From NCBI RefSeq assembly GCF_018861145.1, contig NZ_JAHKQT010000017.1, positions 62,001 through 126,000 of the forward strand: DNA of 64,000 bases. The letters are read 5' to 3'. A model generated the notes under the pieces. It made no database searches. It was given only the letters and a program-made list of their open reading frames with translations, and had not been told where the DNA came from. Source of the stretch: Poseidonibacter lekithochrous (GTDB taxonomy: Bacteria > Campylobacterota > Campylobacteria > Campylobacterales > Arcobacteraceae). Shown piece after piece: positions 4,245-33,996 of the stretch. Each line of letters begins with the position of its first letter. Within the stretch, counting starts at the first letter, position 1. Both the position numbers and the translations under genes were made by a program.

Positions 4245-4247
4245 TTA

Positions 4248-5054
4248 TTACTCCTTTGTAATACTAATCCCTCGCTTTAAATTAGCAAGAGAATACAAAT
4301 CATCTATTTTTATATATGTTGTATTAATTGGTACATCAACTCTTAAGTCATGATGTAAACTATCATCTTTAAAGTTTTCTATAATATTCAAATCATCATC
4401 ATAAAAAACAACATCTGGATGCCATCTATTCCCTCTATTAGAAGTTATATTCAAACTATTAGCATTTGAAATTTTTATTAAATAAGGTTTAAGTGGTTTC
4501 TTTAGTGATAATTGATTATTTGCTGTTAAATCTTTTGCTTTATATATATTTGAATTATCACTATTTATTGAATATCTCCAGCTATAAGCTCCCTCTCTTT
4601 TTATATAGCTCACTTGGCAATTATTTTTTGCAAGTGCTTTTGCTAATCTGAGAGGGTTAATGGCGGCTTCTGTTTTTAGCTTTATATTCCAAATAAAACT
4701 GTTGTTATCATATTTTGCATCTTGAACAAGATAGTAATAATGACCTAAAGAGTTAAGTGCGTCTTTTAAAATTAAAAGAGATTTTTTAGGTGTATCACTT
4801 ATTTTAAATGATACATCTATATATTTTGTAGAGCCATATTTTAATTTTAATAATCCATTACTTTGTAATTTACTTGTTAATGCTAGATAATTTACTTGAC
4901 CATTATTAGAATACGATGAGCCATTAAAGATATAATTAATTAAGTTTTTGTGCTTGTTGTAAGCACTAGGGCCTAGTATATCTCTAATTTGAGTATTTAC
5001 GTTTGCATTTAAAGCTACAGTACAAGTAATTATTAAAATTAGTTTTTTTATCAT
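4248..5054 (-). CDS. Exported protein of unknown function
   Basis: 268 residues with a clear Sec signal peptide (MIKKLILIITCTVALNA, cleavage expected after Ala17). The mature part is mixed alpha/beta, rich in Asn, Lys and Tyr, with one cysteine near residue 143. The C-terminal 80 residues (PYLIKISNANSLNITSN onwards) look like a small beta-sandwich that could bind a ligand or envelope polymer. I do not recognise a family. It lies between rlmB (11 bases upstream) and the aminotransferase (3 bases downstream), and its 3' end contains the ribosome site of the latter, so it is a true member of the operon although its product is periplasmic while its neighbours are cytoplasmic enzymes. Confidence 0.75.
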   Translation of the reverse strand: MIKKLILIITCTVALNANVNTQIRDILGPSAYNKHKNLINYIFNGSSYSNNGQVNYLALTSKLQSNGLLKLKYGSTKYIDVSFKISDTPKKSLLILKDALNSLGHYYYLVQDAKYDNNSFIWNIKLKTEAAINPLRLAKALAKNNCQVSYIKREGAYSWRYSINSDNSNIYKAKDLTANNQLSLKKPLKPYLIKISNANSLNITSNRGNRWHPDVVFYDDDLNIIENFKDDSLHHDLRVDVPINTTYIKIDDLYSLANLKRGISITKE

Positions 5055-5065
5055 AATAAAATCTC

Positions 5066-5755
5066 TTATCTTTTTAGATTATAAATTAAAATCCCAGCAG
5101 CTACTGATACGTTTAACGAATCAAATTCATGTTCCATTGCAATTGATACTTTTAAATCAAGTTTTTTAGCAACTTTTGGAGAAATACCTTCACCTTCACT
5201 TCCTAAGAATAATGCAACTTTATCAGTTTTCTCGATTTTACCATATTTTTTTAAGTCAACACCATCCGTTGTTGCACCTATTAAAGTAAAGCCACAATCT
5301 CTTAACTCACTTGATAAATCAGCAGATCTTGGGTGCACCATAAATGGTAAATCAAGTAATGCTCCTGAACTTGTTCTTACAATTCCAGCGTTATTAATAG
5401 TCTTGATATTTGAAGCTATAATTCCTTCAATACCCATTGAATATGCAGTTCTTGCAATTGCACCAATATTTCCAACATCCGTAACTCCATCTAAAACTAA
5501 GATAAAGTTCATTTCTTTGAAATCTTTGATTGGTGTATAGTCAAATTGAACTAACTTTAAAAAGAAACCTTGATGATTTCCACCTTTTGCAAGTGCTTGA
5601 GCTTTTTGGTTATCTACTTTGTAAATTACTTTTTTAAGACTTGCAAACTTTGAAAAAAGTTTTTTATCTATTTCTTTTGAAAGAAAAACTTCTTCAATTA
5701 ATTCGGGGTGATTTTCTAGTACGTATAGTACGATTTGTTTTCCATATATTATCAT
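5066..5755 (-). CDS. rlmB: TrmH/SpoU-family 23S rRNA (guanosine-2'-O)-methyltransferase RlmB
   Basis: A 229-residue SpoU-family methyltransferase that uses S-adenosylmethionine to 2'-O-methylate a guanosine in 23S rRNA (G2251 in E. coli). The N-terminal 70 residues are the small substrate-binding domain (IIYGKQIVLYVLENHPELI). The C-terminal knotted domain shows the three SpoU motifs: VLDGVTDVGNIGAIARTAYS, LFLGSEGEGISPKV and MEHEFDSLNVSVAAGILIYN, with the essential Asn and Glu-Gly residues in place. It is the first gene of the minus-strand unit that runs on to hom, and is divergent from the FIST chemoreceptor gene. Confidence 0.93.
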   Translation of the reverse strand: MIIYGKQIVLYVLENHPELIEEVFLSKEIDKKLFSKFASLKKVIYKVDNQKAQALAKGGNHQGFFLKLVQFDYTPIKDFKEMNFILVLDGVTDVGNIGAIARTAYSMGIEGIIASNIKTINNAGIVRTSSGALLDLPFMVHPRSADLSSELRDCGFTLIGATTDGVDLKKYGKIEKTDKVALFLGSEGEGISPKVAKKLDLKVSIAMEHEFDSLNVSVAAGILIYNLKR

Positions 5756-13173: not shown

Positions 13174-13250
13174 GCGTCTGTGGCTCAACTGGATAGAGCA
13201 CTGGGTTTCGGCCCCGGCGGTTACAGGTTCGACTCCTGTCAGGCGTACCA
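13174..13250 (+). tRNA. tRNA-Arg (anticodon UCG)
   Basis: A 77-nt cloverleaf with encoded CCA end. The acceptor stem GCGTCTG / CAGGCGT pairs with two G-U pairs; the D arm is GCTCAACTGGATAGAGC; the anticodon stem CTGGG / CCCGG carries the loop TTTCGGC, giving anticodon TCG for codon CGA; the T arm is ACAGG TTCGACT CCTGT. The 3' part from 13206 is duplicated at 21328, making this tRNA the integration target of the adjacent mobile element. The complete copy at the left end remains functional. Confidence 0.96.
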
Positions 13251-17255: not shown

Positions 17256-18086
17256 ATGTGTAAGCCAGTTATAAAATGGGTTGGAGGAAAACGCCAACTT
17301 TTAAATGAATTAAAAAAATATATGCCTAAAAATTTCAATACATACTTTGAGCCTTTCATAGGTGGTGGGGCTTTATTTTTTGATTTAAAAATAAAAAAAA
17401 GTTTTATAAATGACTATAATTCAGAGCTAACAAATTTATATGAGATTATTAAAAACAAACCTAATGAACTTATCAAAGATTTAGAAAAGCATCAAAACAA
17501 TTCAGAATATTTTTATAAGACAAGAGAATTAGATAGAACACCCGAAAAATATAAAAGATTATCAAAAGTAAAAAAAGCAAGTAGATTTATATATCTTAAT
17601 AAAACTGGTTTTAATGGACTTTATAGAGTAAATAGAAGTGGTCAATTTAATGTGCCATTTGGTAAATACAAAAACCCTAATTATGCCGATAGTGATAATA
17701 TTTTAGCTTGTAGCGAATTATTACACGATACAACTATATTAAATGGAGACTTTGAAATTATAAAGAAACATATTCAAAAAGGTGACTTTGTATATTTTGA
17801 CCCTCCATATGTTCCATTGAATGAGACTTCAAGTTTTACTGGTTATACAGACAAAGGCTTTGATGAAGATATGCAATTTAGATTAAAAGAATTATGCGAC
17901 TATATAAATAGTATTGGAGCTTATTTTATGTTATCTAATTCGTATACTAAATATATAGAAAATTTATATAAAGAATATAATTTAATTACAGTTCAAGCCA
18001 ATAGAGCTTTAAATTGTAAAGCTACGGGAAGAGGAAAAATAAACGAATATATCGTTATAAATTATGAAATTAATAAGGAAAAATAA
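17256..18086 (+). CDS. DNA adenine methyltransferase, Dam/MboI-type
   Basis: 276 residues, the typical size for a Dam-family N6-adenine methylase. Motifs in order: KWVGGKRQLLNEL at residue 7 (the X motif), YFEPFIGGGALFF at about 31 (motif I, AdoMet binding), NKTGFNGLYRVNRSGQFNVP at about 113, and the catalytic DPPY in GDFVYFDPPYVPL at about 178. This subfamily mostly modifies GATC, so GATC is the likely target but is not proven. Its stop overlaps the next gene start (TAATG), coupling methylase and endonuclease. It lies in the mobile element and is therefore acquired. Confidence 0.88.
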   Translation: MCKPVIKWVGGKRQLLNELKKYMPKNFNTYFEPFIGGGALFFDLKIKKSFINDYNSELTNLYEIIKNKPNELIKDLEKHQNNSEYFYKTRELDRTPEKYKRLSKVKKASRFIYLNKTGFNGLYRVNRSGQFNVPFGKYKNPNYADSDNILACSELLHDTTILNGDFEIIKKHIQKGDFVYFDPPYVPLNETSSFTGYTDKGFDEDMQFRLKELCDYINSIGAYFMLSNSYTKYIENLYKEYNLITVQANRALNCKATGRGKINEYIVINYEINKEK

Positions 18087-19303
18087 TGTCTAAGATAACA
18101 AGTCATACTTCATGGGAAAATATTTTTAATCAATATAATGTTTTAAGTGAAATTAGTCGAAATAATTATTTTGATATTACGGCAGACCAAATAAAAGCTG
18201 TTGATGGTAAAGAAGCGAGACTTATGACAAAAGTTGATTTTAGACAAAGCTTACCCAATATAATGAAGCAAGAAGAACTTTCTATTTTAGCAATAAAAAA
18301 TGGTTTATATAGAATTGCAAAAAATGACCCTTTTATTAATATCAATCAAAATATAGAAACTGAAATTATTGAATTAGAAGCACCTTCAAATATAATAAGT
18401 ATTGACCCATATAATATAAAAAGCGAAAGTGCTGCATTAGATATTGCAACTATTACAGAAATGGCTAATACTGTATTTGGAGAAGAGAGTAGTTTATCAA
18501 TTAGAGGAAGGTTAAGAGGCTCATTAAATTTTAATATTGGAACTGTTCCATATAATATTGACGGAGTTCAAATAGAAGTTGATGGAGGCTACGAAGGTAA
18601 TTCCTCAATAAATTTAATTGAAGCAAAAATTGGTTATCGTGATAATATTAATATAAGGCAATTACTTTACCCTGAATTATATTGGAAAAATGAAATTAGT
18701 AATAGAAAAACAATCAAGAGCTATATTTTTTATTTACAAGAAGATATTTATAGATTCATTCCTTATATTTATGATGGAGTAATAGGCTACGCAGACCACG
18801 CAAATGAGAAAGCATTTAAATTTAAAGAGCCTTCTTCTGATTTTTCTTTATTTAGTATCGAAATAAATGAAAATCATATATGTTTAAACACTCCATTTCC
18901 ACAAGCTGACAAATTTGATACTATTCATAGTATGTTAATTTTAATATCAGAACACCCATGCATGACAAAAGAAGAACTAAAATTAAATTTTGATATCGTT
19001 GATAGACAAATAGATTATTATTACAATGTTTTAAAATGGTTAAAACTTTGCGAAGAAGAAAATGATTGTATGGTCTTAACTACAAAAGGAATAGAAGTTC
19101 TTCAATTACCTTTTAAAGATAGAATTATTGAAATATCAAAGATTGTATTTTCAGAACCCATTTTCAATAATTACTTAAATGATAGAGAAGTAAATCTTCA
19201 ATTATTTCAAAGATATAATGTAAATAGTGAAAGCACTAAGAATAGAAGACTTCAAACTGTTAAGGCTTGGGTTTTATACTTTAAGAATATCGTTGAAAAT
19301 TAA
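18086..19303 (+). CDS. Putative type II restriction endonuclease partner of the methylase
   Basis: 405 residues. The N-terminal part (SWENIFNQYNVLSEISRNNYFDITADQIK, then ARLMTKVDFRQSLPNIM) and the central segment with Asp166, Glu179 and Lys181 (EVDGG ... LIEAKIGY) fit a PD-(D/E)xK nuclease site, and NIRQLLYPELYWK follows as in known endonucleases of this type. The C-terminal 130 residues look like a winged-helix domain that could read DNA. Position directly after, and translationally coupled to, a Dam-type methylase supports the role. The recognition site should equal that of the methylase. Assignment is by motif and context. Confidence 0.75.
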   Translation: MSKITSHTSWENIFNQYNVLSEISRNNYFDITADQIKAVDGKEARLMTKVDFRQSLPNIMKQEELSILAIKNGLYRIAKNDPFININQNIETEIIELEAPSNIISIDPYNIKSESAALDIATITEMANTVFGEESSLSIRGRLRGSLNFNIGTVPYNIDGVQIEVDGGYEGNSSINLIEAKIGYRDNINIRQLLYPELYWKNEISNRKTIKSYIFYLQEDIYRFIPYIYDGVIGYADHANEKAFKFKEPSSDFSLFSIEINENHICLNTPFPQADKFDTIHSMLILISEHPCMTKEELKLNFDIVDRQIDYYYNVLKWLKLCEEENDCMVLTTKGIEVLQLPFKDRIIEISKIVFSEPIFNNYLNDREVNLQLFQRYNVNSESTKNRRLQTVKAWVLYFKNIVEN

Positions 19304-20019: not shown

Positions 20020-21153
20020 TTAGATTATATTTGACATAATGGCATCTATCATGTCCCTACCACTATCAGGGGATAGTTTCGCATATCTTAAAGTCATATT
20101 AATATCTTTATGATTTAAAAGCTTTTGAATGGTATATATTGGAGTACCTTTAATTGCTAAGTTACTTGCAAAACTATGCCTAAAGGTGTGAATAACAACT
20201 CTATTTTTAGCATCACTTTTTTCAAGACCTTCATTGAAAAGTTCATCTAAGATAGGTTTTAATCTTTTTTGTATTTCTCTTAATTTTGCTTGAGTATTAT
20301 TTATTTGAAATATATAATCATTTACACTAAGAGTTTTTAGCTTTTCATTTAAGATGGTTGCTGTTTCTTTAGTTATAAAGCCTGTGTATGTTGTACCATT
20401 CTTGAAGTCTGTTAAAGTAATATTTCTTTCCTCAATGTTTATGTGCTTTTTTTGAATATTAAGTGTTGTTGTTGCTCTTGCACCTGTAGAGAATGAAATT
20501 AAACAGAATAGATAGAGAAGTTCATTATCTCTAACATTGTCAAGTAACAGTTGAATCTCACTTAATGTTAAAAATCTTTCTCTTTTATTATTGATTTTGA
20601 CCCGTTTGATTTTATTAAGAGGATTTGTACCTTTATAAACATCATTGTTAATAGCATAATTAAAAATTGTACTAAATAATGTGAGTATATGATTTACAGT
20701 TTTTGGTGCAAGTGTTTTAAGCTTCTCACGTTGCAGTTTTTGAATATCCTGTATAACTATAGCATCTAAGTTTTTTTTGCCGAATATAGGCTTTAAATGA
20801 GTGTTATATCTATATACTTCATTGTCTTTACTTTTTTTATTATGATGAACTTCTCTATATTCAAAATATTGCTTTGATATATCATCTAAAATTAATGTTG
20901 TTCTATTATTTCTAGCTGCAACTTTTGGCAGGTCTTCACCTAATCTAATTTTTGTAATAATTTCATTTCGTTTTGTGTTACAATAATTCTCTCTTATACC
21001 TTCAGAGAATTTACCTATTTTTAATTCTTTATCTTTTAAGTTTTCATCTTTATATCGTATGTAATAAGTTTTATCAGGCTTACTATTTGTGGTAGAATGT
21101 ATGTAATATACACCTATGAATTTTGTTTTATTTCTATTAAATGCTTTTCCCAT
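20020..21153 (-). CDS. int: Tyrosine recombinase (integrase) of the element
   Basis: 377 residues from the ATG at 21153, chosen because AGAAAGGG lies just upstream; an ATG seven codons earlier has no ribosome site. Domain order: an arm-type DNA-binding N-terminus with the FIGVYYIHS strand, a SAM-like core-binding domain at about residues 80-190, and the catalytic domain. Catalytic residues visible are Arg226 (STGARATTTL), His322 and Arg325 (HTFRHSF), His348 (LLNHKDI) and the nucleophile Tyr357 (RYAKL). It sits 174 bases from the right 68-bp repeat and should catalyse insertion into and excision from tRNA-Arg. Confidence 0.93.
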   Translation of the reverse strand: MGKAFNRNKTKFIGVYYIHSTTNSKPDKTYYIRYKDENLKDKELKIGKFSEGIRENYCNTKRNEIITKIRLGEDLPKVAARNNRTTLILDDISKQYFEYREVHHNKKSKDNEVYRYNTHLKPIFGKKNLDAIVIQDIQKLQREKLKTLAPKTVNHILTLFSTIFNYAINNDVYKGTNPLNKIKRVKINNKRERFLTLSEIQLLLDNVRDNELLYLFCLISFSTGARATTTLNIQKKHINIEERNITLTDFKNGTTYTGFITKETATILNEKLKTLSVNDYIFQINNTQAKLREIQKRLKPILDELFNEGLEKSDAKNRVVIHTFRHSFASNLAIKGTPIYTIQKLLNHKDINMTLRYAKLSPDSGRDMIDAIMSNII

Positions 21154-21327
21154 TTTTACCCTTTCTCTCCCCATCTTAAATAAAATAAAGTGCTATAATT
21201 TGTAAATAACATGATATAAGAAAAAGGAATTATCGAATACTATAAGTACGATATATGCGATGATGTGCGAGTAAATTGATTGAAGTTAAAGTGAATTGAT
21301 ATATAGTGATAAATCGCTAATATATAA
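21154..21327. other. Region between integrase and attR, possible arm-type sites
   Basis: Non-coding, AT-rich. The short string AATTGAT is repeated near 21274-21300, and GCGATGATGTGCGA is a local near-repeat around 21257. These could be integrase arm sites, but no clear consensus can be shown by eye. Nothing else is seen. The stretch without a gene continues through attR to 21517. Confidence 0.25.
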
Positions 21328-21395
21328 TTTCGGCCCCGGCGGTTACAGGTTCGACTCCTGTCAGGCGTACCATTTAGAAGCCCGATTTAATCGCT
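21328..21395 (+). repeat. attR: 68-bp direct repeat
   Basis: Identical to 13206-13273. It carries only the 3' part of tRNA-Arg from the anticodon loop, so it is not a functional tRNA. It marks the right boundary of the element. Confidence 0.95.
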
Positions 21396-21425
21396 CTTTG
21401 TGAGTGTTTAGGTCGGGCTTTTTTT
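21378..21425 (+). terminator. Second copy of the tRNA-Arg terminator
   Basis: Stem AAGCCCGA (21378-21385) / TCGGGCTT (21413-21420) followed by T-run. The loop differs from the left copy (CTTTGTGAGTG against GTTTGCAGTG). This is presumably the original chromosomal terminator displaced by the insertion. Confidence 0.75.
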
Positions 21426-21517
21426 ATGTCTAAAAATTAAAGTGATGCCTATATCACACTAATAGATTAGCATTTTCGTCAAATGATTTTATTAGGAAAA
21501 TATAAAGATATTTTATA

Positions 21518-22516
21518 CTATTTAGTCCTTACTCTTTTCATTCTATCTTTATAAGATTCCTTATAAAACTCTTTTGCTTTAGGACTTAAAAAAGATTTAT
21601 CAATTAAATCTTCTACTTCTAGATATGAATCTTCAATAAATTTCATAATTTTATTAAATCTAATTTCAGGTAAATCTATAAACTTAGCAAAAGTTTTGAA
21701 ATCATTATAAGTATAGTAACCATAAGCTTCATAAGTATCCGTATAATCATCTAATAAATCTATTGCCATATCTCCATATTTTTCATTTATATGAAATCTT
21801 GTGTTTAATAAATCATAACTTGGTGTTAAAAAGTATTCATTAGAATCTGCTTTACTATACAAAGAAAAGTTTTTAAGATGAGCATCGCCATTACATATTA
21901 GATAGTTTAAAATAATTCTTTTAAAAAAATCTTCTTGTGATACTATACTAGATGCTACATGTTTTTTTATCATCTTTGCACAATCTAAATAACTACAAGC
22001 ATCATACTTATAATTTTCTCCATGAGTTACTGGTGTTATTCCCATAATTCCAGCAAAATCTTCTTGATCGTATTTTAAAGCTGATACATCATCATAATCA
22101 AATCTCTTTGTTATATAAGCTAACTCTCCATCACTAAATCTAATCAAACCACTTGAAGCTGTAGGAATTTTAAATATGTTCTTTGAGATAAGCATTGATA
22201 AATGTTCATTTGCCACAATATCTTTTTCATTTTGAATATGTCCATCCCCATTAGTAATAGGTTTTAAAATATATCTTCCATTAGCTGCAGTGGGTATTAA
22301 GTCTTTCTTTTCAAAAGTTAAAGAGATTTTATCTTGAACCCCAGAGATTGACATTCTAGGCGATAATTCTGCTCTTTTTTTAGTAAATTCAATTCTGTCA
22401 AAACTTAAAGGATTTGGCACTTTCCCATTAAAAAGCTCTTTAATACACTTTGGACAATAGTTATTTCTTAGTTTTTTATTTTCTGATAAACAACCCAAAC
22501 ATATTTTATCTTCCAT
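21518..22516 (-). CDS. hipT: HipT-type serine/threonine kinase toxin
   Basis: 332 residues. It lacks the N-terminal subdomain-1 of classical HipA and is preceded by a separate gene for that part, as in HipBST systems. The N-terminus has a zinc knuckle (Cys6, Cys9, Cys21, Cys24) not usual in the E. coli HipT. The phosphate-binding loop contains MSISGVQDKISL with Ser56-Ile57-Ser58, matching the SIS motif where HipT autophosphorylates. The kinase core follows: ILKPITNGDGHI (lysine), ICNGDAHLKNFSLY (catalytic Asp) and PSYDLLNTRFH (metal-binding Asp). In E. coli O127 HipT phosphorylates tryptophanyl-tRNA synthetase; the target here is unknown. Confidence 0.88.
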   Translation of the reverse strand: MEDKICLGCLSENKKLRNNYCPKCIKELFNGKVPNPLSFDRIEFTKKRAELSPRMSISGVQDKISLTFEKKDLIPTAANGRYILKPITNGDGHIQNEKDIVANEHLSMLISKNIFKIPTASSGLIRFSDGELAYITKRFDYDDVSALKYDQEDFAGIMGITPVTHGENYKYDACSYLDCAKMIKKHVASSIVSQEDFFKRIILNYLICNGDAHLKNFSLYSKADSNEYFLTPSYDLLNTRFHINEKYGDMAIDLLDDYTDTYEAYGYYTYNDFKTFAKFIDLPEIRFNKIMKFIEDSYLEVEDLIDKSFLSPKAKEFYKESYKDRMKRVRTK

Positions 22517-22518
22517 TT

Positions 22519-22845
22519 TTATATCTCATCTTTTTCTATAGTAATAGAACCTATTGTGTTCTCTTTTGTTGTTAATAATAATCTTGAAAAATCATCATTT
22601 TTATCAATTCTAAGTTCCTTGCATTGAATATCTTTTAATTTACCTTCTGCCAATAAATTATAAAAAAAAGGAAATAAACTTTTTGATGTAAATTCCTCTT
22701 CTTGTAAAGGGAATGTTAGACTAATAGCTTTTGCATTATCTTTATTTAAATACTCTTTATCATAAACAAAGCTATAGCTATTGTCATCAAACTTTGTAAG
22801 TAAACCAGTAAAGGTGTTATTTCTAAAAACTTTTGCTCTTTGCAT
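22519..22845 (-). CDS. hipS: HipS-type antitoxin (free HipA N-terminal subdomain)
   Basis: 108 residues corresponding to subdomain-1 of HipA: AKVFRNNTFTGLLTKFDDN at the N-terminus, then SLTFPLQEEEFTSKSLFPFFYNLLAEG, which aligns with the HipA segment SLPL...PFFDNLLPEG. In HipBST systems HipS, not HipB, neutralises the kinase. The gene overlaps hipB by the TAATG junction and ends 2 bases before hipT, so the three are one operon in the order B-S-T. Confidence 0.88.
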   Translation of the reverse strand: MQRAKVFRNNTFTGLLTKFDDNSYSFVYDKEYLNKDNAKAISLTFPLQEEEFTSKSLFPFFYNLLAEGKLKDIQCKELRIDKNDDFSRLLLTTKENTIGSITIEKDEI

Positions 22846-23057
22846 TATTTAATCTTCACTTTGATATCTAATTCCATTCCTAATACATCTAAAAGTTTTT
22901 CTAGTGTTTTAACCGTAGGATTAGCTTTTCCATTTTCAATCTCAGATATTGAAACATAATTAACACCTGAATAATCTTGTAAATCTTTTAGTTCAAGATT
23001 TAATTCTTTTCTTCTTTTTTTTATAGTTTTACCTATTTTAGCAGATGTTACTTCCAT
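22845..23057 (-). CDS. hipB: HipB-type Xre family transcription regulator
   Basis: 70 residues forming a single Xre/Cro helix-turn-helix: IGKTIKKRRKELNLELKDLQDYSGVNYVSISEIENGKANPTVKTLEKLLDVLG. This fits HipB, which binds operators and augments toxin neutralisation through the HipS-HipT complex. It is the first gene of the operon. Three 19-bp near-identical sites lie in the 209-base region upstream, the nearest 26 bases from the start, so autoregulation is likely. Confidence 0.85.
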   Translation of the reverse strand: MEVTSAKIGKTIKKRRKELNLELKDLQDYSGVNYVSISEIENGKANPTVKTLEKLLDVLGMELDIKVKIK

Positions 23058-23082
23058 TTTAATACCTTAATATGTATTCTTA

Positions 23083-23222
23083 TTTAGTATATAAGTTAAA
23101 TATGTTTAATTATATATCTATAAAAATTAATATTTACTTTAAATTTAAGTTATATACTAAATAATATGATACGAGTTGATAATATTTGAAAAAAGACTTC
23201 ATATTTAATATATATGTTAAAT
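23083..23222. promoter_or_regulatory. Three operator-like repeats shared by hipBST and the divergent helicase gene
   Basis: Sites at 23083-23101, 23143-23161 and 23204-23222. Aligned in one orientation they read ATTTAACTTATATACTAAA (site 1, reverse), ATTTAAGTTATATACTAAA (site 2) and ATTTAACATATATATTAAA (site 3, reverse). Centre spacing is about 60 bases. Each has TTTA / TAAA half-sites. They occupy both promoter regions and are the expected HipB targets. Confidence 0.65.
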
Positions 23223-23266
23223 TAAAAATATGATAAACTCAATTTACAAAAATAATTGGATTCTAA

Positions 23267-26200
23267 ATGTTTAAAAATGGTTTATACGAACAACTCATAA
23301 ATAATTTGATTTCAAATAAATTAAATTCTTTGGATTTGGAAACTATTTATTATAAAACTACTGCTATTGAAAAATCGGAAGCTTCTAATTTCTTAACACA
23401 ATATATAAGTAACTTTATTAATCATTCACTGAATTTAATAAGTGGTGAAAATAGTGTTGAAACCAAGATAAATATCATAAATAAAATAATCTTATTACTT
23501 CAAAGTGAAATAGAAAAACAAGATTTTAAAGATAATTTACTTGATATTAATACTTCTATTTTAAAAGCAGTTATACCAAAACTTGATTCTCATATAAAAG
23601 ATTTTGACACTTATATTAAAGAAATCACTCCATATACAGGTCTTACTCAAAGTGAACTTTTTACGGGAAGTAATGCTGGAGTTTCTTTAGAAAGTGAAAT
23701 AAAAAAAGAGATACTTTCTTCTGACAAGATATATTTTCTGGTCTCTTTTATAAAATGGTCAGGTATTAGGATATTTGAAAAAGAGTTAAGAGAATTTACT
23801 AAAAGAGGAAAAAAACTACAGGTTATTACCACTTCATATATGGGAGCAACTGATTTAAAAGCAGTTGAATTTTTAGCAAGTTTACCAAATACTGAAATTA
23901 AAGTTTCATATAATACAGCAAATGAAAGACTACATGCAAAATCTTATCTATTTTTTAGAGATACGGGTTTTCATACTGGATATATAGGTTCTTCCAATAT
24001 TTCAAAAAGTGCACTTACAAGTGGATTAGAATGGAATTTAAAAGTAACAAATTCAGAAATTTCACATATAATAAAAAAGTTTGAAAAAACTTTTGAAACA
24101 TATTGGGAAGATAAAGAGTTTGAAGTATTTACACAAGCAGAAAAACAAAAACTTCAAATTGCACTAAATAATGCTTCGACAAAAGATACAAATAATTTCT
24201 CAACTTTTTTTGATATAAAACCGCATCATTATCAAGAAGAAATTTTAGAAGAACTTCAAGTACAAAGAGAGGTTCATAAACGTTACAAAAATCTTTTAGT
24301 TGCTGCAACAGGAACTGGAAAAACAGTTATAAGTGCTTTTGATTATAAACGATTTAAACAAAATAATCCAAGTGCAAAACTTTTATTTGTAGCTCATCGA
24401 AAAGAAATCTTAATACAAGCTAGATCTACGTTTCAAGCAATATTAAAAGACAATAATTTTGGTGAATTATGGGTTGATGGAATTACTCCTTTAAGTTATG
24501 AGTACTTATTTACCTCTGTACAAACTTTACAAAATAATATTGAAAAACTCTCTCTTACAAAAAACTATTATGATTTTATAATAATAGATGAAGTACATCA
24601 CATAGCTGCAAAAAGTTATAGACCAATTTTACAAAAGTTTGAAGCAAATATTCTCTTAGGACTTACAGCAACACCTGAGAGAATGGATAATGAAAATATT
24701 CTAGATGATTTTTGTGGTGTAATTGCTTGCGAGATTAGACTTCCTGAAGCATTAAATAGAAAACTACTTTGCCCTTTTCAATATTTTGGAATTAGTGATA
24801 GTGTAGATTTACAAAATATAAAATGGCAAAATGGGAAATATCAAACAAGTGAACTAAATGATGTTTTATCAAGTGAAAAAAGAGTTGGTGAAATTATTGC
24901 AAAATGTGAAGAATATCTAAGAGATATAAATGATGTCTTAGCAATTGGCTTTTGTGTATCACAAGAACACGCAAAGTTTATGAGTGAGAAATTTAATGAA
25001 GTTGATTTAAAAGCAGATTTTCTTATAAGTGGAAGTTCCAATAGAGATGATGTGAAGTCAAGATTATTAAAAAAAGAAATAAACTATTTATTTGTAGTTG
25101 ATATCTTTAATGAAGGTGTTGATATTCCACAAATTGATACTATCTTATTTTTACGTCCAACTGAGAGTTTAACTGTGTTTTTACAACAATTAGGGAGGGG
25201 ACTTAGATTTGCTGAAAACAAAGAGTGCTTAACTGTTTTAGATTTTGTAGGAAATGCTAGAGATGAATATGATTTTGAAGGTAAATTTAGAAACTTAATT
25301 GGTAAAACCTCTAATAGTGTAAAAGATGAAATAGAAAATGAATTTCCTCATTTACCTTTAGGATGTTCAATAGTCTTAGAAAAAAAAGCTAAAGAACATA
25401 TTTTAAATAATATTAAAAAAGCAACTACACTTGGTAGAAGAAAACTAATATCAAAAATAAGAAATTATGAAAATCAGACAACTTTAGCACTTACAATTAG
25501 AAACTTTACGAAGATAAATCATCTTTCCTTAGAAAATTTATATAAAAAAGATAGTTTTTCTAAATTGTGTTATGAAGCTAATATTGTAGAAGATTTTAAT
25601 GAAGTTAATGAAAAAGAGCTGATAAGAGCAATTTCTAAAAAATGGCTATTAACAAGATCTCATAGTTATTTTGAATTTATTTTAGAACTTATAGATAATA
25701 ATTTTGATTTTACAAAAGAAGTTATGGAAAAAAATAAAAAATCATTTTTGATGCTTTATTATGATTTCTTTCAAGACCCAAATATGTTTAATAGTTTAGA
25801 CGAAGGAATAAAATATATAGGAAATAATAAAATCTTAATTAAGGAATTAAAAGAGGTAATTGAAATTTTAATAGATAAAATCACTCATATTGAAAGTGAT
25901 TTAGATTTACCATATTTTTGTCCAATAAAACTACATTCAAGATATACAAGAGAACAGATATTATCAGGTTTTGGGCAAAATAGTTTTCATAAAAAATCAA
26001 ATAGTAGAGAAGGTGTTTTAAATATAAAAGACAAAAATACTGAACTTTTATTTGTAACATTAGAAAAAACAGAAGATAAATATTCCCCTACAACTATGTA
26101 TGATGATTATGCAATAAATGACAGATTATTCCATTGGCAATCTCAAAATTCAACTAAGCCAGACTCTCCTAAAGGTTTAAGTTATATTAACCACCAAAAA

Positions 26201-26395
26201 GAGAATAAAAATATTATCTTATTTGTAAGAGAATCAAGCCATAATGAAAATAAAAATGTAATGACATATATATGTTTAGGGAAGGTTATTTATAAAAGTC
26301 ATTATGGAAGCCAACCTATGAGTATTACATGGGAACTTGAAAATAAAATACCACCTTTTTTATGGAAAAATATTGCAAAAATGGCAGTGGGATAA
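23267..26395 (+). CDS. PLD-nuclease / superfamily II helicase / DUF3427 protein
   Basis: 1042 residues in four parts. Residues about 130-280 are a phospholipase-D-like domain with the HKD-type motif LHAKSYLFFRDTG and GSSNISKSALTSG. Residues about 320-660 are the helicase core: Walker A in AATGTGKTVIS, DEVHH box in FIIIDEVHHIA, motif III GLTATPERMD, and motif VI FLQQLGRGLRF. A linker follows, and the last 160 residues match DUF3427 (RYTREQILSGFG ... LLFVTLEKTEDKYSP). Such proteins are thought to be nucleic-acid-processing enzymes and are common in accessory regions; a defence role is plausible but unproven. Divergent from hipBST across shared operators. The ribosome site is weak. Confidence 0.85.
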   Translation: MFKNGLYEQLINNLISNKLNSLDLETIYYKTTAIEKSEASNFLTQYISNFINHSLNLISGENSVETKINIINKIILLLQSEIEKQDFKDNLLDINTSILKAVIPKLDSHIKDFDTYIKEITPYTGLTQSELFTGSNAGVSLESEIKKEILSSDKIYFLVSFIKWSGIRIFEKELREFTKRGKKLQVITTSYMGATDLKAVEFLASLPNTEIKVSYNTANERLHAKSYLFFRDTGFHTGYIGSSNISKSALTSGLEWNLKVTNSEISHIIKKFEKTFETYWEDKEFEVFTQAEKQKLQIALNNASTKDTNNFSTFFDIKPHHYQEEILEELQVQREVHKRYKNLLVAATGTGKTVISAFDYKRFKQNNPSAKLLFVAHRKEILIQARSTFQAILKDNNFGELWVDGITPLSYEYLFTSVQTLQNNIEKLSLTKNYYDFIIIDEVHHIAAKSYRPILQKFEANILLGLTATPERMDNENILDDFCGVIACEIRLPEALNRKLLCPFQYFGISDSVDLQNIKWQNGKYQTSELNDVLSSEKRVGEIIAKCEEYLRDINDVLAIGFCVSQEHAKFMSEKFNEVDLKADFLISGSSNRDDVKSRLLKKEINYLFVVDIFNEGVDIPQIDTILFLRPTESLTVFLQQLGRGLRFAENKECLTVLDFVGNARDEYDFEGKFRNLIGKTSNSVKDEIENEFPHLPLGCSIVLEKKAKEHILNNIKKATTLGRRKLISKIRNYENQTTLALTIRNFTKINHLSLENLYKKDSFSKLCYEANIVEDFNEVNEKELIRAISKKWLLTRSHSYFEFILELIDNNFDFTKEVMEKNKKSFLMLYYDFFQDPNMFNSLDEGIKYIGNNKILIKELKEVIEILIDKITHIESDLDLPYFCPIKLHSRYTREQILSGFGQNSFHKKSNSREGVLNIKDKNTELLFVTLEKTEDKYSPTTMYDDYAINDRLFHWQSQNSTKPDSPKGLSYINHQKENKNIILFVRESSHNENKNVMTYICLGKVIYKSHYGSQPMSITWELENKIPPFLWKNIAKMAVG

Positions 26396-27609: not shown

Positions 27610-28164
27610 ATGCCATATCTAGTTGCATCTATTATTACAATTGTAACAGCTATGACTATTTTACTTACAAGATATGAAGCTGATGATAGTACTATAAAAG
27701 CGGAACTTGAAAATATGAGAGTTATGTTTTCAATGATTGATGGTTTTGTTAATACTTATGTTGATAGTGGTGGAAATTTAACTATTATTAATATTTTTGA
27801 ATTAGGGAATGATGGAATATTGCTTTCAAATATGGAAGTTTTTCCTGATACTGTAGATGAAGATTCAACTTATTTGGAAAAATTGAAAACTACAACTATT
27901 TTACCAAATAGTAATGTTGTTTGGCAAATTATTCCAAATAATGCTGATGCTAGTTCTTATAAAATATTAGTTGATATGAGAGCTAGTGGAGGATTAATGA
28001 GTAAAGCTGTATTCTCTGAAAACTTCTCAGGTAGAGAATTTTGTGAAAAATCGCTTTTTGGTACAGCAGAATTAACTTTAAATCAATTTGATGGAACAGA
28101 TGATTTTAAAGATAGTGGAGGTACAACTAAAGATGGAATCTTTGTTTGTACTGTATTTAAGTAA
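27610..28164 (+). CDS. Pilin-like protein A of the type IVb-like cluster
   Basis: 184 residues. The protein begins MPYLVASIITIVTAMTILL: a hydrophobic helix starts at residue 3, so there is practically no leader peptide, followed by a charged amphipathic helix (IKAELENMRVMFSMIDGF) as in the alpha-1 spine of type IV pilins. The globular domain has two cysteines (REFCEK at about 145 and VCTVFK at the end), which fits the disulfide-bounded D-region. There is no Glu5. It is the first gene of the cluster. Pilin identity is inferred from architecture and context, not from a family match. Confidence 0.6.
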   Translation: MPYLVASIITIVTAMTILLTRYEADDSTIKAELENMRVMFSMIDGFVNTYVDSGGNLTIINIFELGNDGILLSNMEVFPDTVDEDSTYLEKLKTTTILPNSNVVWQIIPNNADASSYKILVDMRASGGLMSKAVFSENFSGREFCEKSLFGTAELTLNQFDGTDDFKDSGGTTKDGIFVCTVFK

Positions 28165-28247
28165 TTGGTGTGATTTATAAAGGTTTATAAATTATAAACA
28201 TTTGGTAGGTTGGTAGGAAAAATTTAAATTAATAAAAAAGGATTAAA

Positions 28248-28889
28248 ATGCCACAGTTAATAGCAATGGTTATAGTAGTAGTTGGAGCAATGATTTATAT
28301 GTTCCAAACGTTTGGTGGAACAGGTGATAAAATTGAAGGTATCGCACAAAAGTCTAGTATTATTACTGAAATAAATAATATTAAAAGTGGTGTACAGCTA
28401 GCATTAAGATCTGAAGTTGTTTATAATACTTCAGAAACAGAATCAGTTGAAAATAGTTTAGCGACTAGTTTAAGTGGAATTGCTTCATTAGAATTTTTCC
28501 CTGAACAAATAAATAATCAACTAATAGATAATGCGGTAACGAATACTTATAATGCAATTTCTTTTGGGGCAAGTGATAATATGGAGATAACATTAGTCTT
28601 GCCATCTACAGATGCAGCTGCAGATGAAAGTGCTAGACCAGGTCTTTTTATAGATATGAGTAAAGGTAATTTAGCAACAAATTCAGGGTTTTTAGAAAAA
28701 CAAGTAATTAATGATTTAGAATCTTTAGCATCAATAGACGAACATGCTATAAGTACAACAGGATATAATGCTTTAGATAATGATGGGGATATAACTGCTA
28801 AGACAGCTGCTAGTACTGGTTCAGATTTAGATGGTATGTTTACAATTTATTTCAAAGATTTACCTAGAGGTTCAATTAGGAGTGAGTAG
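28248..28889 (+). CDS. Pilin-like protein B of the type IVb-like cluster
   Basis: 213 residues beginning MPQLIAMVIVVVGAMIYMFQTFGG, closely similar in its first 20 residues to protein A (MP-L-A pattern, then a hydrophobic helix), followed by AQKSSIITEINNIKSGVQLAL, which resembles the amphipathic helix of PilS/TcpA-type IVb pilins. It contains no cysteine. It has its own ribosome site (AAAAGGATT) and is followed by a strong hairpin, giving the unit the expected profile of a major pilin gene expressed above the machinery genes. Identity as pilin is an inference. Confidence 0.62.
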   Translation: MPQLIAMVIVVVGAMIYMFQTFGGTGDKIEGIAQKSSIITEINNIKSGVQLALRSEVVYNTSETESVENSLATSLSGIASLEFFPEQINNQLIDNAVTNTYNAISFGASDNMEITLVLPSTDAAADESARPGLFIDMSKGNLATNSGFLEKQVINDLESLASIDEHAISTTGYNALDNDGDITAKTAASTGSDLDGMFTIYFKDLPRGSIRSE

Positions 28890-28928
28890 TAACATTTTAG
28901 GCTTTTTAGCCTAAGTGTTATCTAAAAT

Positions 28929-28963
28929 AAAAAATGAGTATTATCCTTTAATATTCATTTTTT
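28929..28963 (+). terminator. Hairpin after the two pilin-like genes
   Basis: A 15-bp stem (AAAAAATGAGTATTA / TAATATTCATTTTTT, one G-U pair) with a 5-base loop and T-rich 3' arm. A smaller hairpin (TTAGGCT / AGCCTAA) lies just before at 28897-28914. Probably partial termination that reduces transcription of the downstream machinery genes. Confidence 0.65.
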
Positions 28964-28988
28964 ACTTTATAAAAAGGGACAAATACAA

Positions 28989-29735
28989 ATGTTAGGAAAT
29001 ATATGGCTATCATCAGCACTCATTGTTACAGCTATATATTCTGCATCATCTGTATATAAGTCATATTCTGATGCCCAAGAAGCAAAACAAATCCAAGAAA
29101 ACTACGAAATTATATCTGATATAAAAACTCTCTTAGCTAAACAATACAATAAAAATCCAGATGAAGTTACACGTGATGAGATTATGATGCACTTACCCGT
29201 TGGTGGAAATTGGGAAAAGGTATTACTTTTAGATAGGAGTACTTCTAGTACTCTTGAAAATGATGCCTTGGTTGATGTTGATGGTAACTTTGTACTAAAT
29301 GAAAGTGAGCAATTAAAACTTTTTGCTTTAAGAGCAAAATTGAGTAATTTATCAGATACTAATACAGAAGTCTTAGATGAAAGTACAAAAGATTATACTT
29401 TTACTGTTGGTAAAAAAGATAAAAATATGGTAAATAAAAATATATCAATTGATGAAAATGTAGAAAAGGCCATAGAGTATTTAAGTACAACAATTTTATA
29501 TTCTACATTAACTAGTGCTGAAATTGAAACTAAATTAAATGAAGCAATAGAAAAATACACTCCTTATAGTGATATATATCAAGATATGAAAAAGAGTGAA
29601 GCAGAAGTGATAGATGATGCTGAAGTAGAAATAAGAAAGAAAGCATTTTTCAAAAATAGAATAGAAGAACAATTACTTTTAAATGAAAATGCAATGGAAA
29701 CAAAATTATATTATTACTTGAAAGATATATTATGA
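28989..29735 (+). CDS. Bitopic helical protein of the pilus-like cluster
   Basis: 248 residues: a hydrophobic helix at residues 4-20 (NIWLSSALIVTAIYSASS), then a long helical, acidic region (SYSDAQEAKQIQENYEIISDIKTLL). It could be a minor pilin or a pseudopilin-like assembly factor, since the hydrophobic helix starts at the very N-terminus as in the two pilin-like proteins, but it has no cysteine pair and no clear globular head. Its stop overlaps the next start by four bases (ATGA). No family is recognised. Confidence 0.55.
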   Translation: MLGNIWLSSALIVTAIYSASSVYKSYSDAQEAKQIQENYEIISDIKTLLAKQYNKNPDEVTRDEIMMHLPVGGNWEKVLLLDRSTSSTLENDALVDVDGNFVLNESEQLKLFALRAKLSNLSDTNTEVLDESTKDYTFTVGKKDKNMVNKNISIDENVEKAIEYLSTTILYSTLTSAEIETKLNEAIEKYTPYSDIYQDMKKSEAEVIDDAEVEIRKKAFFKNRIEEQLLLNENAMETKLYYYLKDIL

Positions 29736-30478
29736 TTAAAATATTTTTAATGATGTTAGCATTTTTTATGTCACTAAACATTTTAAATGCAGAGGATTCG
29801 GAGTTTATAAAACAGCAAGAATTACTTTTAACAGTAAAAACTATTATTCAAGAAGAAGAGTCCATAGCTAGAGCTTATGAAAGTTTTATTATTAATAAAA
29901 AAAAATTACCTGAAGTATTCTCAGATTTAGTAAGTGATGAGTATCTAGGTAGTGGATTTACTTTGACACCTTTTGTAGTTGGAGATACCGTATCTATTAA
30001 TGATTTTGGCTTTAGAAAAGGGATAAATAACAGATTTAAAGATGCAAATTTTGATGGAATATCTTTAGAGGATAAGCTTAGTGTACAAAGATTATATGAA
30101 AGTGATTTATTTAGAAAAAAAACTTATTTTTATGATAGCGATACAATAGGTATAAAACTTGATGATGAGTTTGCAAAACATTTATATTTCTTAAGTTCAA
30201 CTGCTGGATTTAATTTAGTCGATTGTGCTGATACTCCTAAAAAAAGATATTGTACAGATGGAGATGATATTTATATCTATGATAATGATTCCCGAACAAA
30301 TTTATTAATGTATTATTCAATAGATAAGTTTAAAACAGGACCAATTATTATTACTAAAGAAACTTCTTTTCATATTACAAGTGATGAATTTAATTCTATA
30401 CCAAAAGGTGCTACGCTATATGATACTAATGCCGTAAAATATATAAAAACAATAAGTTCTATTGAAGTGGTGAAATAA
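29732..30478 (+). CDS. Sec-secreted paralog 1 of the cluster
   Basis: 248 residues with signal peptide MIKIFLMMLAFFMSLNILNA. The mature N-terminus carries the motif shared by four proteins of this cluster: VKTIIQEEESIARAYESFIINKKKLPE, then DEYLGSGF, and later SDLFRKKTYF. The C-terminal part has the cysteine pair DCADTPKKRYC at about residues 168-178. The motif EE-x-IA-x(5)-YI places it with the proteins at 30478, 31189 and 39590. It has no prepilin leader. Probably a periplasmic or surface subunit; no database family is recognised. Coupled to both neighbours by overlapping start and stop codons. Confidence 0.6.
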   Translation: MIKIFLMMLAFFMSLNILNAEDSEFIKQQELLLTVKTIIQEEESIARAYESFIINKKKLPEVFSDLVSDEYLGSGFTLTPFVVGDTVSINDFGFRKGINNRFKDANFDGISLEDKLSVQRLYESDLFRKKTYFYDSDTIGIKLDDEFAKHLYFLSSTAGFNLVDCADTPKKRYCTDGDDIYIYDNDSRTNLLMYYSIDKFKTGPIIITKETSFHITSDEFNSIPKGATLYDTNAVKYIKTISSIEVVK

Positions 30479-31188
30479 TGAAAATATTAATAACAATACT
30501 TTATTTATGCCTTAGTTTTTTAAATGCAAAAGATACATTATATGTACAGCAACAAAATGTATTATATGTACAAAACTTAATAGAAATAGAAGAGAAAATA
30601 GCAAGTAATTTTGAAAAATATCTATTAAATGAATTTAAAATACCAGAAATGAGTGATTTAAAAGATGATGGATATTTAGGAAAAAATTTTAATACTACAA
30701 ATAAATTTAGCTTAGAAGATATAGATTTTATTTCAAATGAGAACTTAAAGATAAGATATGCGATTACAAAGGAAAACTTACCACTTTATATTAATGGATT
30801 ATATAAAAGAGATTTATATCGGGATATGACAACTGCTTATGAAGATAGTGATTCTAGTAAATCATATGTATCTTTTGAATTAAAATCAAAAGTTGCAGAA
30901 AATATTTTAGATATTTTAGAAGGTGGATTTACTATTGAAAGTGAATGTTCTAATTCTTTAAAAGAGACTTATTGTGTTACGAATCTAAATACTATTAGAT
31001 GGTATAATGCAAGTTCAAATTGGATTGAATATAATAATGAGAAATTTGAAGATGGAGATGTAACTATAAGCACTAGTGGACTTCTTACAAGTTCAAAATT
31101 AGATGACTTAAGTATTGGAGTCTTTGTTTTTGTAAATAATGGCGATAAATATTTGAAAACATTTTCTGATGTAATAAAGGTTAATTAA
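30478..31188 (+). CDS. Sec-secreted paralog 2 of the cluster
   Basis: 236 residues, signal peptide MKILITILYLCLSFLNA. It shares with paralog 1 the block LIEIEEKIASNFEKYLLNEFKIPE, the DGYLGKNFN motif, LYKRDLYRDMTTAYEDSD and the cysteine pair ECSNSLKETYC. It ends with a short beta-rich domain. The start overlaps the previous stop (TAATG), and the next gene begins immediately after its stop. Both small paralogs correspond to the N-terminal domain of the two large RCC1-type proteins, so they may be shorter partners lacking the propeller. Confidence 0.6.
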   Translation: MKILITILYLCLSFLNAKDTLYVQQQNVLYVQNLIEIEEKIASNFEKYLLNEFKIPEMSDLKDDGYLGKNFNTTNKFSLEDIDFISNENLKIRYAITKENLPLYINGLYKRDLYRDMTTAYEDSDSSKSYVSFELKSKVAENILDILEGGFTIESECSNSLKETYCVTNLNTIRWYNASSNWIEYNNEKFEDGDVTISTSGLLTSSKLDDLSIGVFVFVNNGDKYLKTFSDVIKVN

Positions 31189-33996
31189 ATGAGATTTATA
31201 CTTTTGATTTTATTGTTAATAAATATTAGTTTTGCAAATACACAAAATATATCTAGAATGAATGCTCTAAAAAAAGTTATTCAAAAAGAAGAATATATAG
31301 CTTTAGCAATTAATAAGTATATCTTGCAAACGGGAAGTCTTCCTCTTACAGAATCAAAGGATTTTGATTGGACTAAACTTGATAATGAAGATTATTTAGG
31401 TAAAAATTTTAATAAAAGTAATCCTTTAACTTCAAAATATATAGATGTTTACTATAAGAGTGGCAACTTTTTTATTAAAGGAGTAATCGATGATAATATT
31501 TCATATGATGAAGATTTAAAATATTTATATAATTTTTATACAAGTAGAATATTTAGAGTAAATACTTTAGCACCAATAAAAATAATAGAGGATGGTGAAA
31601 ATAATGACTCTCAAGTTATTTATTCTTCAATTCAAAAAGAGATAGTAAAAATTCTTAATGATCCAGAAACTGATGCAATTACAACTATAAAACTTGATAG
31701 TCAAGAGTGCCCCGCAAATGAATATTATTATGAATTAAAAGGTAAAGAATTAACATTAAAATTTTGTAAAGATGAAGTTAGTCCAAGTTCTAATCGAGGT
31801 ATTAGTGTATATCAAGAAGCTCCTATTTATGCTGAAAATTGGGAAGATTTACTATATATTAAAGCAAAGATTGGAGATAAGGCTTATGCAAAGAAAAATG
31901 GCACATGGTATGAATATTATTATCAAGGAGATACATCTATTCGATGGGTTCCTTCTTATTTAGGTTCAACAATAAGCGCAGAAAATGAGAGTGAAAATGT
32001 AGAAGATTTGATACTCTCATATATTCCTGATTCAAAAGATTTAGTTTTTAGGCGAGATGGTGGATGTATGTTAGCAAATGGAGATATATTTTGCTGGGGA
32101 AATAATAAATATAAAAAAGCTGGAATTGAAAACTATGGACAATTAGATACATCATTAAGTCCAGATTATGTAAATACACCAGTAATGCTAAAAGTTCAAA
32201 TTGATAATATAACTAAAATTGAAGATGATAAAGGTAATAAACTATCAAGATATGACAAAAAATGGTATAACAATCCTTATAGAGTAAAATTCGAAAAAAT
32301 GGGAATGAATAGTTCAAATGTATGTGGAATATCTCCAATCTTTACATATAAACTTGACGGGCTTGAAAGAAAAATTGGAGGGGAACTATATTGTAATGGT
32401 AGTGTATCCTCAACATATTTTGAAGATTTAGATAGTAGTACTAAAATGACTTCAATTTTAAAGAAAAATAAATTTTTCACTAAAGGGAAAACAAACACCG
32501 AGACAGATACCCCTGTATATTTGCAAGATATAGTGATGGTAGAAGATACTACGGTTGTGTTATCAGATGCTGGAGATATTTACACTTTTGGAAGAAATTA
32601 TAAAGGTGCTTTAGGAATCGGAAGTGATGATAAGTTTATTGCTAAAAATACTCCTGAGAAGATTAATGGAGAGACTATTTTTAAAAAGATTTTTGCTCTT
32701 AGAGATATAAAAGGACTTGGAGCTATTGATGAAGATAACTTTTTTTGGATTTGGGGAGAAACATCATCTGGAATAGTTTATAATAAACCTACACTTTTAG
32801 ATGAAGTTAGAAGATATAATAAAGATGCAATTTTTGTAAATACAAAAGAGTTTGTATTAAAAGGTGTTGATAATAATTTTTACCAAACTACAGGTACTAA
32901 TTCAACAAAATTATTAGCGAATATTCCAAGTACAGCAATAAGCGTATCTGTTTATGGAGACTTTTATACATATATAAATGAAGACTTAGAATTAAAAGCG
33001 AGTGAAAGTTTAAGAGTATGTATGCAAGCAAATGAAACTGATAAATGTACAGCAAATGCGAATAATTATATATTCGATACTTCATTTAATGAACTAAATG
33101 AAAAATCAAATACTGTAAATAATAAAGATTATGCAAACTTCGCAAATGTATCAATTTTTAAACTTGATAGTGTGATAATTGAAGATTTTGAAGATTTTGA
33201 AGACTATAAATCTAGTGATATCCCAAATGGTTGGAATAATGCTAAAGTTACGGTTATTGAAGATGATGGAACAGATGAAGTTCCAGTAACAACATTCTTA
33301 GGAAATTTTAAAATAGGTTCATCGATTGATAAGGTATATTCATTTCCTGAATATAAAAATAATGAAGTAGATGTAGAATTTGATTTTTATGAAATTGATA
33401 CATGGGATTATGAGAAATTTATTGTTAAATTCAATGGAGAAACCATTGTTGAAGATAATTTTATTCATGATGATCATACAGAATTAACTGATGTCAAAGA
33501 TAATGGGGAATCTCTTCAAGCTGTATCCTCATCTGGTGGTTATAATGATGGTGACCAAAAATTTCATTATAAGTTTAGAACAAATTTAGATGGTAATGGA
33601 GATTTAAAGATTGAATTTAGTACAAGAGGATTAGTTGAAGGTGATTTTGGGAAAAACAAGTGGTCATATGCTCAAACTTTAGGAGATGAATCGTGGGGAA
33701 TTGATAATGTACATGTAAAAGTAAAGGAAACAAATAAAAAATTTGTATGTGCTATGACAGGTTTAGGTAGTAAGTCTCAGATGTATTGTTGGGGGAATGT
33801 CGCTAGAAGCATACCTATTTTAAGCACATCTTTATATGATATGAGTAAAATAACTACTATTAATAAATTATTTATCACTCAAGAAGATGAAAAAAAAGTC
33901 CAAATGTCAGATAGCTTCTATAATTCAAATGGAAATTTATTTCTAAAATTTCCTACATATATTGGAGGATTTGATTATGGTTTTTATTTTAAATAA
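31189..33996 (+). CDS. Secreted RCC1-type beta-propeller protein 1
   Basis: 935 residues. Signal peptide MRFILLILLLINISFA, then the paralog N-domain (LKKVIQKEEYIALAINKYIL ... EDYLGKNFNKSNP) to about residue 240. From about 285 come RCC1-like blades: GGCMLANGDIFCWGNNKYKKAG, VVLSDAGDIYTFGRNYKGALGIG, FFWIWGETSSG, and at the end MYCWGNVARS. A beta-sandwich-like domain (about residues 658-845, FEDYKSSDIPNGWNNAKV onward) is inserted before the last blade. Cysteines pair at the blade ends. The final residues are KFPTYIGGFDYGFYFK, nearly identical to the end of the protein at 39590. Probably a surface or pilus-tip ligand-binding protein; function is unproven. Confidence 0.72.
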   Translation: MRFILLILLLINISFANTQNISRMNALKKVIQKEEYIALAINKYILQTGSLPLTESKDFDWTKLDNEDYLGKNFNKSNPLTSKYIDVYYKSGNFFIKGVIDDNISYDEDLKYLYNFYTSRIFRVNTLAPIKIIEDGENNDSQVIYSSIQKEIVKILNDPETDAITTIKLDSQECPANEYYYELKGKELTLKFCKDEVSPSSNRGISVYQEAPIYAENWEDLLYIKAKIGDKAYAKKNGTWYEYYYQGDTSIRWVPSYLGSTISAENESENVEDLILSYIPDSKDLVFRRDGGCMLANGDIFCWGNNKYKKAGIENYGQLDTSLSPDYVNTPVMLKVQIDNITKIEDDKGNKLSRYDKKWYNNPYRVKFEKMGMNSSNVCGISPIFTYKLDGLERKIGGELYCNGSVSSTYFEDLDSSTKMTSILKKNKFFTKGKTNTETDTPVYLQDIVMVEDTTVVLSDAGDIYTFGRNYKGALGIGSDDKFIAKNTPEKINGETIFKKIFALRDIKGLGAIDEDNFFWIWGETSSGIVYNKPTLLDEVRRYNKDAIFVNTKEFVLKGVDNNFYQTTGTNSTKLLANIPSTAISVSVYGDFYTYINEDLELKASESLRVCMQANETDKCTANANNYIFDTSFNELNEKSNTVNNKDYANFANVSIFKLDSVIIEDFEDFEDYKSSDIPNGWNNAKVTVIEDDGTDEVPVTTFLGNFKIGSSIDKVYSFPEYKNNEVDVEFDFYEIDTWDYEKFIVKFNGETIVEDNFIHDDHTELTDVKDNGESLQAVSSSGGYNDGDQKFHYKFRTNLDGNGDLKIEFSTRGLVEGDFGKNKWSYAQTLGDESWGIDNVHVKVKETNKKFVCAMTGLGSKSQMYCWGNVARSIPILSTSLYDMSKITTINKLFITQEDEKKVQMSDSFYNSNGNLFLKFPTYIGGFDYGFYFK

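Follow-up and report, generated by a model that had tools for sequence, protein, structure and literature searches.

RESULTS

The hipBST operon and a divergent SauUSI-like gene

The window analyzed here is a stretch of 64,000 nucleotides from Poseidonibacter lekithochrous (contig NZ_JAHKQT010000017.1, positions 62,001 to 126,000), and coordinates are those of the window unless another locus is named. On the minus strand, hipB (22845..23057) encodes a 70-aa helix-turn-helix repressor (HTH_3, 4.5e-15; the couple_hipB domain match, at 1.8e-13, is under that model's cut-off), hipS (22519..22845) encodes a 108-aa protein with a HipA N-terminal domain (Couple_hipA, 7.8e-22; TIGR03071, 1.2e-23), and hipT (21518..22516) encodes a 332-aa HipA C-terminal kinase (HipA_C, 2e-38). 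The genes overlap or almost do so and have the hipB-hipS-hipT order of a HipBST three-gene operon, in which, by homology, HipS would be the antitoxin and HipT the toxin. An alignment showed that the kinase motifs of HipT are intact, with the SIS motif/SISG loop, the catalytic loop NGDAHLKN and YDLLNT all conserved. The solved structures nearest to HipT were the HipA_C chains 7ab3-7ab5 (1.3e-19), which are of HipT length, and HipT(Lp) 8ezr (4e-16).

The gene that diverges from hipB (23267..26395, plus strand; hereafter called the helicase) encodes a protein of 1042 aa with a PLD nuclease, a ResIII helicase and DUF3427 on a single chain, which is the composition of SauUSI-type enzymes. The protein matched the PADLOC mREase_IV model with 703 bits across 918 residues. 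It also matched PDB entry 7clg (1.5e-76), a 953-aa chain described as a "putative helicase" which, from its name and length, we take to be SauUSI. The product resembles a SauUSI-type (type IV) restriction enzyme, and this name is more exact than the "PLD/helicase/DUF3427 gene" of the initial annotation. SauUSI of Staphylococcus aureus has the same domain order, with an N-terminal PLD nuclease, a central ATPase/helicase and a C-terminal DUF3427 on one chain, and cleaves 5-methylcytosine DNA in an ATP-dependent reaction (PMC3874153). By analogy, the 1042-aa protein may have the same activity. Unlike the 953-aa SauUSI, it has approximately 100 N-terminal residues that fall outside the match.

We found the divergent hipBST-helicase pair in a single genus, where four genomes have it, namely the window's genome, G002, G005 and G006 (hereafter the pair genomes), and it occupies an integration hot spot. 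In the window, an integrated element of about 8 kb is delimited by a tRNA-Arg(TCG) gene (13174-13250) and by a 100-bp copy (96%) of the 3' part of that gene together with a terminator (21328-21427). The element carries an integrase gene (20020-21174) at its right end, and hipBST begins just outside it. A tRNA-Arg fragment occurs at the same place in G002 and G005, along with different integrases, and in G006, where that integrase is absent.

Several other features of the window and its genome were also recorded. Inside the element (17256-19303), a gene for a D12-class adenine methyltransferase is followed by one for a DUF6996/DUF6997/DUF7226 protein that matches a PADLOC type II restriction model, and the two would form a putative restriction-modification pair. 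Downstream of a GGDEF gene lies a run of pilin-like and secreted-looking genes (27610-33996), the last of which encodes a 935-aa protein with RCC1-like repeats, identified by eye. Elsewhere in the same genome, a SauUSI-like remnant with 75-77% identity over codons 17-99 lies by a resolvase-like gene (L036 6577-6817; contig C12 of G000).

Three evenly spaced sites between hipB and the helicase

The start of hipB (23057) and the ATG of the helicase (23267) are separated by an intergenic region of 209 bp with 87% A+T. We found that this region holds three 18-bp imperfect palindromes on alternating strands. The hipB-proximal site O1 (23083..23100, minus strand; TTTAACTTATATACTAAA) is 25 nt upstream of hipB, O2 (23144..23161, plus strand; TTTAAGTTATATACTAAA) has the strand sense opposite to that of the other two, and the helicase-proximal site O3 (23204..23221, minus strand; TTTAACATATATATTAAA) is 45 nt from the helicase ATG. 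Start to start or centre to centre, the sites are 61 and 60 bp apart, with gaps of 43 and 42 bp.

O1, O2 and O3 are the only perfect matches to the pattern TTTAASWTATATANTAAA in the 3.0-Mb genome. When two or fewer mismatches were allowed, the genome contained 66/55 matches versus 52/43 for the reversed control, a background which is mostly chance. The three-copy score of the region was 33, 37 and 40 for 18, 20 and 22 nt, while the shuffle maxima were 31, 34 and 36, and the observed score was reached by none of 400 dinucleotide-shuffled versions of the region. With unique exact matches and a score beyond that of the shuffles, the array described in the initial annotation, three sites with a shared consensus at a spacing of about 60 bp within the 209 bp, is real.

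A search of other genomes for the same head-to-head pair led to the pair genomes of the one genus, and the repeats were kept there. O1 was identical across all four genomes, and 15 of the 18 columns of O2 and 17 of the 18 columns of O3 were invariant. From O3 to the helicase ATG, 43 of the 45 columns were invariant in the four genomes, while the O2-O3 spacer had 25 invariant columns out of 42; within the intergenic region, only O1 is better conserved than O3 with these 45 bp.

Promoters were also predicted in this region. A putative -10 box of hipBST, TATAAT, was picked out by eye on the minus strand at 23109..23114, and a TATATAATTA stretch is conserved at its place in loci L042-L045 and L200 of other genomes (see below). 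The box lies 8 bp upstream of O1, so that the transcription start would be covered by HipB bound at this site. On the plus strand, a predicted -10 box of the helicase, TATGAT (23229..23234), lies 7 bp downstream of O3, and a weak promoter-like match (9/12) at 23205-23234 overlaps O3. A promoter scan of the region returned 7 matches versus 4.9 +/- 1.7 in shuffles.

The array with and without the helicase

G005 and G006 both have a broken helicase beside an intact hipBST and intact O1-O3. A second hipBST copy in G002 (L029) is preceded by three equally spaced sites (5672/5733/5793), and no divergent gene is present at this copy, where the upstream gene is co-directional. The same three sites were found in L042, L043 and L044, which are from other genera of the family (HipT 81-82% identical) and from which the helicase is absent. 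In L046 (HipT 65% identical) and its relative L066, three sites of related sequence are 61 and 61 bp apart, and the helicase is likewise absent. L045 has fewer than three recognisable sites, as do several Campylobacterota loci that are more distant.

G414 has a broken helicase gene, 77% identical, upstream of hipBST and co-directional with it. The array of this genome (spacing 60 and 61) is located between the helicase 3' end and hipB, and so cannot drive the helicase. The helicase was found within the examined stretch of none of 80 further named HipBST loci from many phyla (0/80). No such operators were found upstream of the 75%-clade helicases that occur without HipBST.

Since the array is present without the helicase, is kept where the helicase is broken, and, in G414, lies at the 3' end of the helicase, it belongs to the HipBST module and not to the gene pair. 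The possibility that the operators are the helicase's own was ruled out, because 75%-identical helicases without HipBST lack the sites and the array exists without the helicase.

HipA-family kinases beside one clade of SauUSI-like genes

In the clade with >70% identity, a HipA-family kinase adjoins the helicase in 7 of 11 loci. Four arrangements were observed: divergent HipBST in the four genomes of the one genus, HipBST downstream in tandem in G414 (L200 7650-12536), HipBA upstream in tandem in G027 (L030 6960-11887), and HipBA downstream and convergent in G003 (L031 8858-13435). Among the 34%-clade helicases of the same 60 genomes, no HipA-family kinase was found within 146 kb on the contig (0/18), some of these contigs being short. 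The juxtaposition of kinase and helicase may be functional or may come from shared defence islands, and its recurrence beside one SauUSI-like clade offers a lead of its own on partnerships in defence islands.

Two related loci were also noted. In G026, the helicase gene is split by a transposase-like gene (L033 3134-7834; insertion at 3852-5216). Facing the second HipBST of G002 in convergent orientation is a run of genes, identified by eye, for an AbiEi-like HTH protein, a SAM methyltransferase and an 868-aa helicase (L029 91-5105), which is possibly another defence system.

A 61-bp operator spacing in HipBST promoters

The spacing of operators was analyzed in 80 HipBST upstream regions by taking the best similarity between two 18-mers, in either orientation, at each offset between 18 and 140 bp. 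Offset 61 had a mean similarity excess of 2.25, and the excess did not go above 0.74 at any offset when 100 dinucleotide-shuffled sets were scored. The best offset was at 60-62 in 41 of the 80 loci, compared with about 4 per typical three-base bin and 10 in the highest bin away from 61; since the loci are related by descent and about half of them have no clear 61-bp pair by this scoring, the effect size is approximate. Neither random 230-mers from the same loci nor dinucleotide shuffles gave a peak. The peak at 61 was also absent from 29 HipBA upstream regions, where similarity instead rose weakly and broadly near 40, and the HipBA promoters rule out the 61-bp spacing as a general feature of the Hip family.

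In Bacteroidota and neighbouring groups, the operator sequences themselves differ, and include ATCACA-N6-TGTGAT, AGTGCA-N6-TGCACT and TTAGAAATATATTTCTAA. In L071, L114, L137, L144 and other loci of these groups, 18-bp palindromes of several unrelated sequences lie approximately 61 bp apart, and the first operator is often 43-50 nt before hipB. Since operators of different sequence are found at about 61 bp, the spacing is kept while the operator sequence changes. Thus, the 61-bp operator spacing recurs in HipBST promoters of several phyla despite unrelated operators. This is a new result, as a 61-bp spacing across phyla is not described in the searchable HipBST papers. Its recurrence indicates that the geometry of the repressor complex, besides its DNA contacts, is under selection.

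DISCUSSION

The three sites are very likely HipB operators, and we are confident that the HipBST toxin-antitoxin operon regulates itself through them. In the mechanism that we infer, HipB dimers, alone or with HipT and HipS, would bind O1, O2 and O3. O1 lies immediately past the predicted hipBST -10 box, where transcription would start, and its occupation would block the operon. O2 and O3, which follow outward in steps of about 61 bp, would strengthen repression, probably via contacts between phased complexes. The array is part of the HipBST module and ends at O3. With the helicase start codon 45 bp past O3 and its predicted promoter overlapping O3, HipB may damp the restriction gene as a by-product. 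The toxin-restriction regulon suggested earlier thus becomes simpler, the array being the regulatory module of the HipBST operon itself.

It was proposed in the initial annotation that HipB sites lie at the promoters of both genes, and that toxin and helicase expression would rise together when HipB is lost or titrated. The first part largely stands: beside the probable identity of the sites as HipB operators, O3 overlaps the predicted helicase promoter, so that HipB could repress both genes. The second part fares less well. An array kept, or an O3 placed, for the joint repression of hipBST and the restriction gene, the two rising together as one defence response, appears quite improbable to us. 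The position of O3 at the predicted helicase promoter would agree with such a design, as would the conservation from O3 to the ATG relative to that of the O2-O3 spacer, the divergent orientation kept in 4/4 genomes of the genus, and the HipA-family kinase genes beside this helicase clade in 7/11 loci. However, O3 is found at equal spacing without any helicase or divergent gene, the same array precedes hipB at helicase-free loci, and it persists intact beside the broken helicases of G005 and G006. Furthermore, the hip genes of G414, G027 and G003 are otherwise oriented and share no promoter with the helicase, and the 75%-clade helicases without HipBST have no such operators upstream. Either a promoter belonging to the helicase itself or recombination between the four closely related genomes could account for the conserved 45 bp. 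The release of the toxin upon loss of HipB is also doubtful. In the HipBST systems studied, HipS neutralises HipT and HipB represses the operon (PMC10653801, PMC10627512), so that a loss of HipB would raise antitoxin and toxin together and need not free the toxin.

On the other hand, HipB at O3 could repress the restriction gene merely through the place where that gene landed, and we would put the chance of this a little below even. The position of O3 relative to the predicted helicase -10 box, 7 bp away, and to its -35 speaks for this, but the helicase promoter is a weak prediction, given how little the promoter scan exceeded the shuffles. Shared use of the array with the helicase is thus possible, and it looks like an accident of position. 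A mere chance resemblance among the sites carries almost no probability: the motif is A+T-rich, as is the region, and its two-mismatch matches are common genome-wide, but the shuffle test, the three unique exact sites and the conservation upstream of hipB in other genera all speak against it, and conservation at independent loci refutes a chance origin of the array. A wider scheme, which we consider unlikely, would make a ruler of about 61 bp general to HipBST promoters, kept across phyla as HipB-HipT-HipS complexes touch or bridge one another; in the present genome, this assembly would also silence the SauUSI-like gene, and the toxin operon and restriction would be released together.

As autoregulatory operators of HipBST, O1-O3 can be compared with those of two known systems. 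The HipBST of Escherichia coli O127 has the same hipB-hipS-hipT order and a HipT with the double-serine SIS motif, and HipB represses the operon promoter there (PMC10627512, PMC6581861); its HipB is 107 aa long, versus 70 aa here. The Legionella-type operator motif is reported to be absent from the E. coli O127 HipBST promoter (PMC10653801).

The closer likeness is to Legionella pneumophila, whose HipBST has three evenly spaced 18-nt operators with O1 24 nt before hipB, and whose HipB shifts fragments bearing each of the three operators in EMSA, with HipT and HipS joining the complex (PMC10653801). A recombinase or integrase lies beside most Legionella HipBST loci (PMC10653801). The present locus shares with that system the tripartite hipB-hipS-hipT operon, three evenly spaced 18-nt imperfect inverted repeats upstream of hipB with O1 at 24-25 nt from the gene, and O1 as the best conserved operator; in addition, there are no other genomic copies of the operator, except at a second hipBST-like locus. 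The arrays are likened here by the published description of their build and not by the letters of the operators. Unlike the Legionella locus, the present one has a divergent restriction gene beyond O3. The gaps also differ, as they are 53 bp in nearly all of 28 Legionella species (PMC10653801) and 43 and 42 bp here, which corresponds to a centre spacing of 71 bp (18 + 53) there and about 61 bp here. The two spacings are approximately one helical turn apart, which suggests that neighbouring complexes must face the same way.
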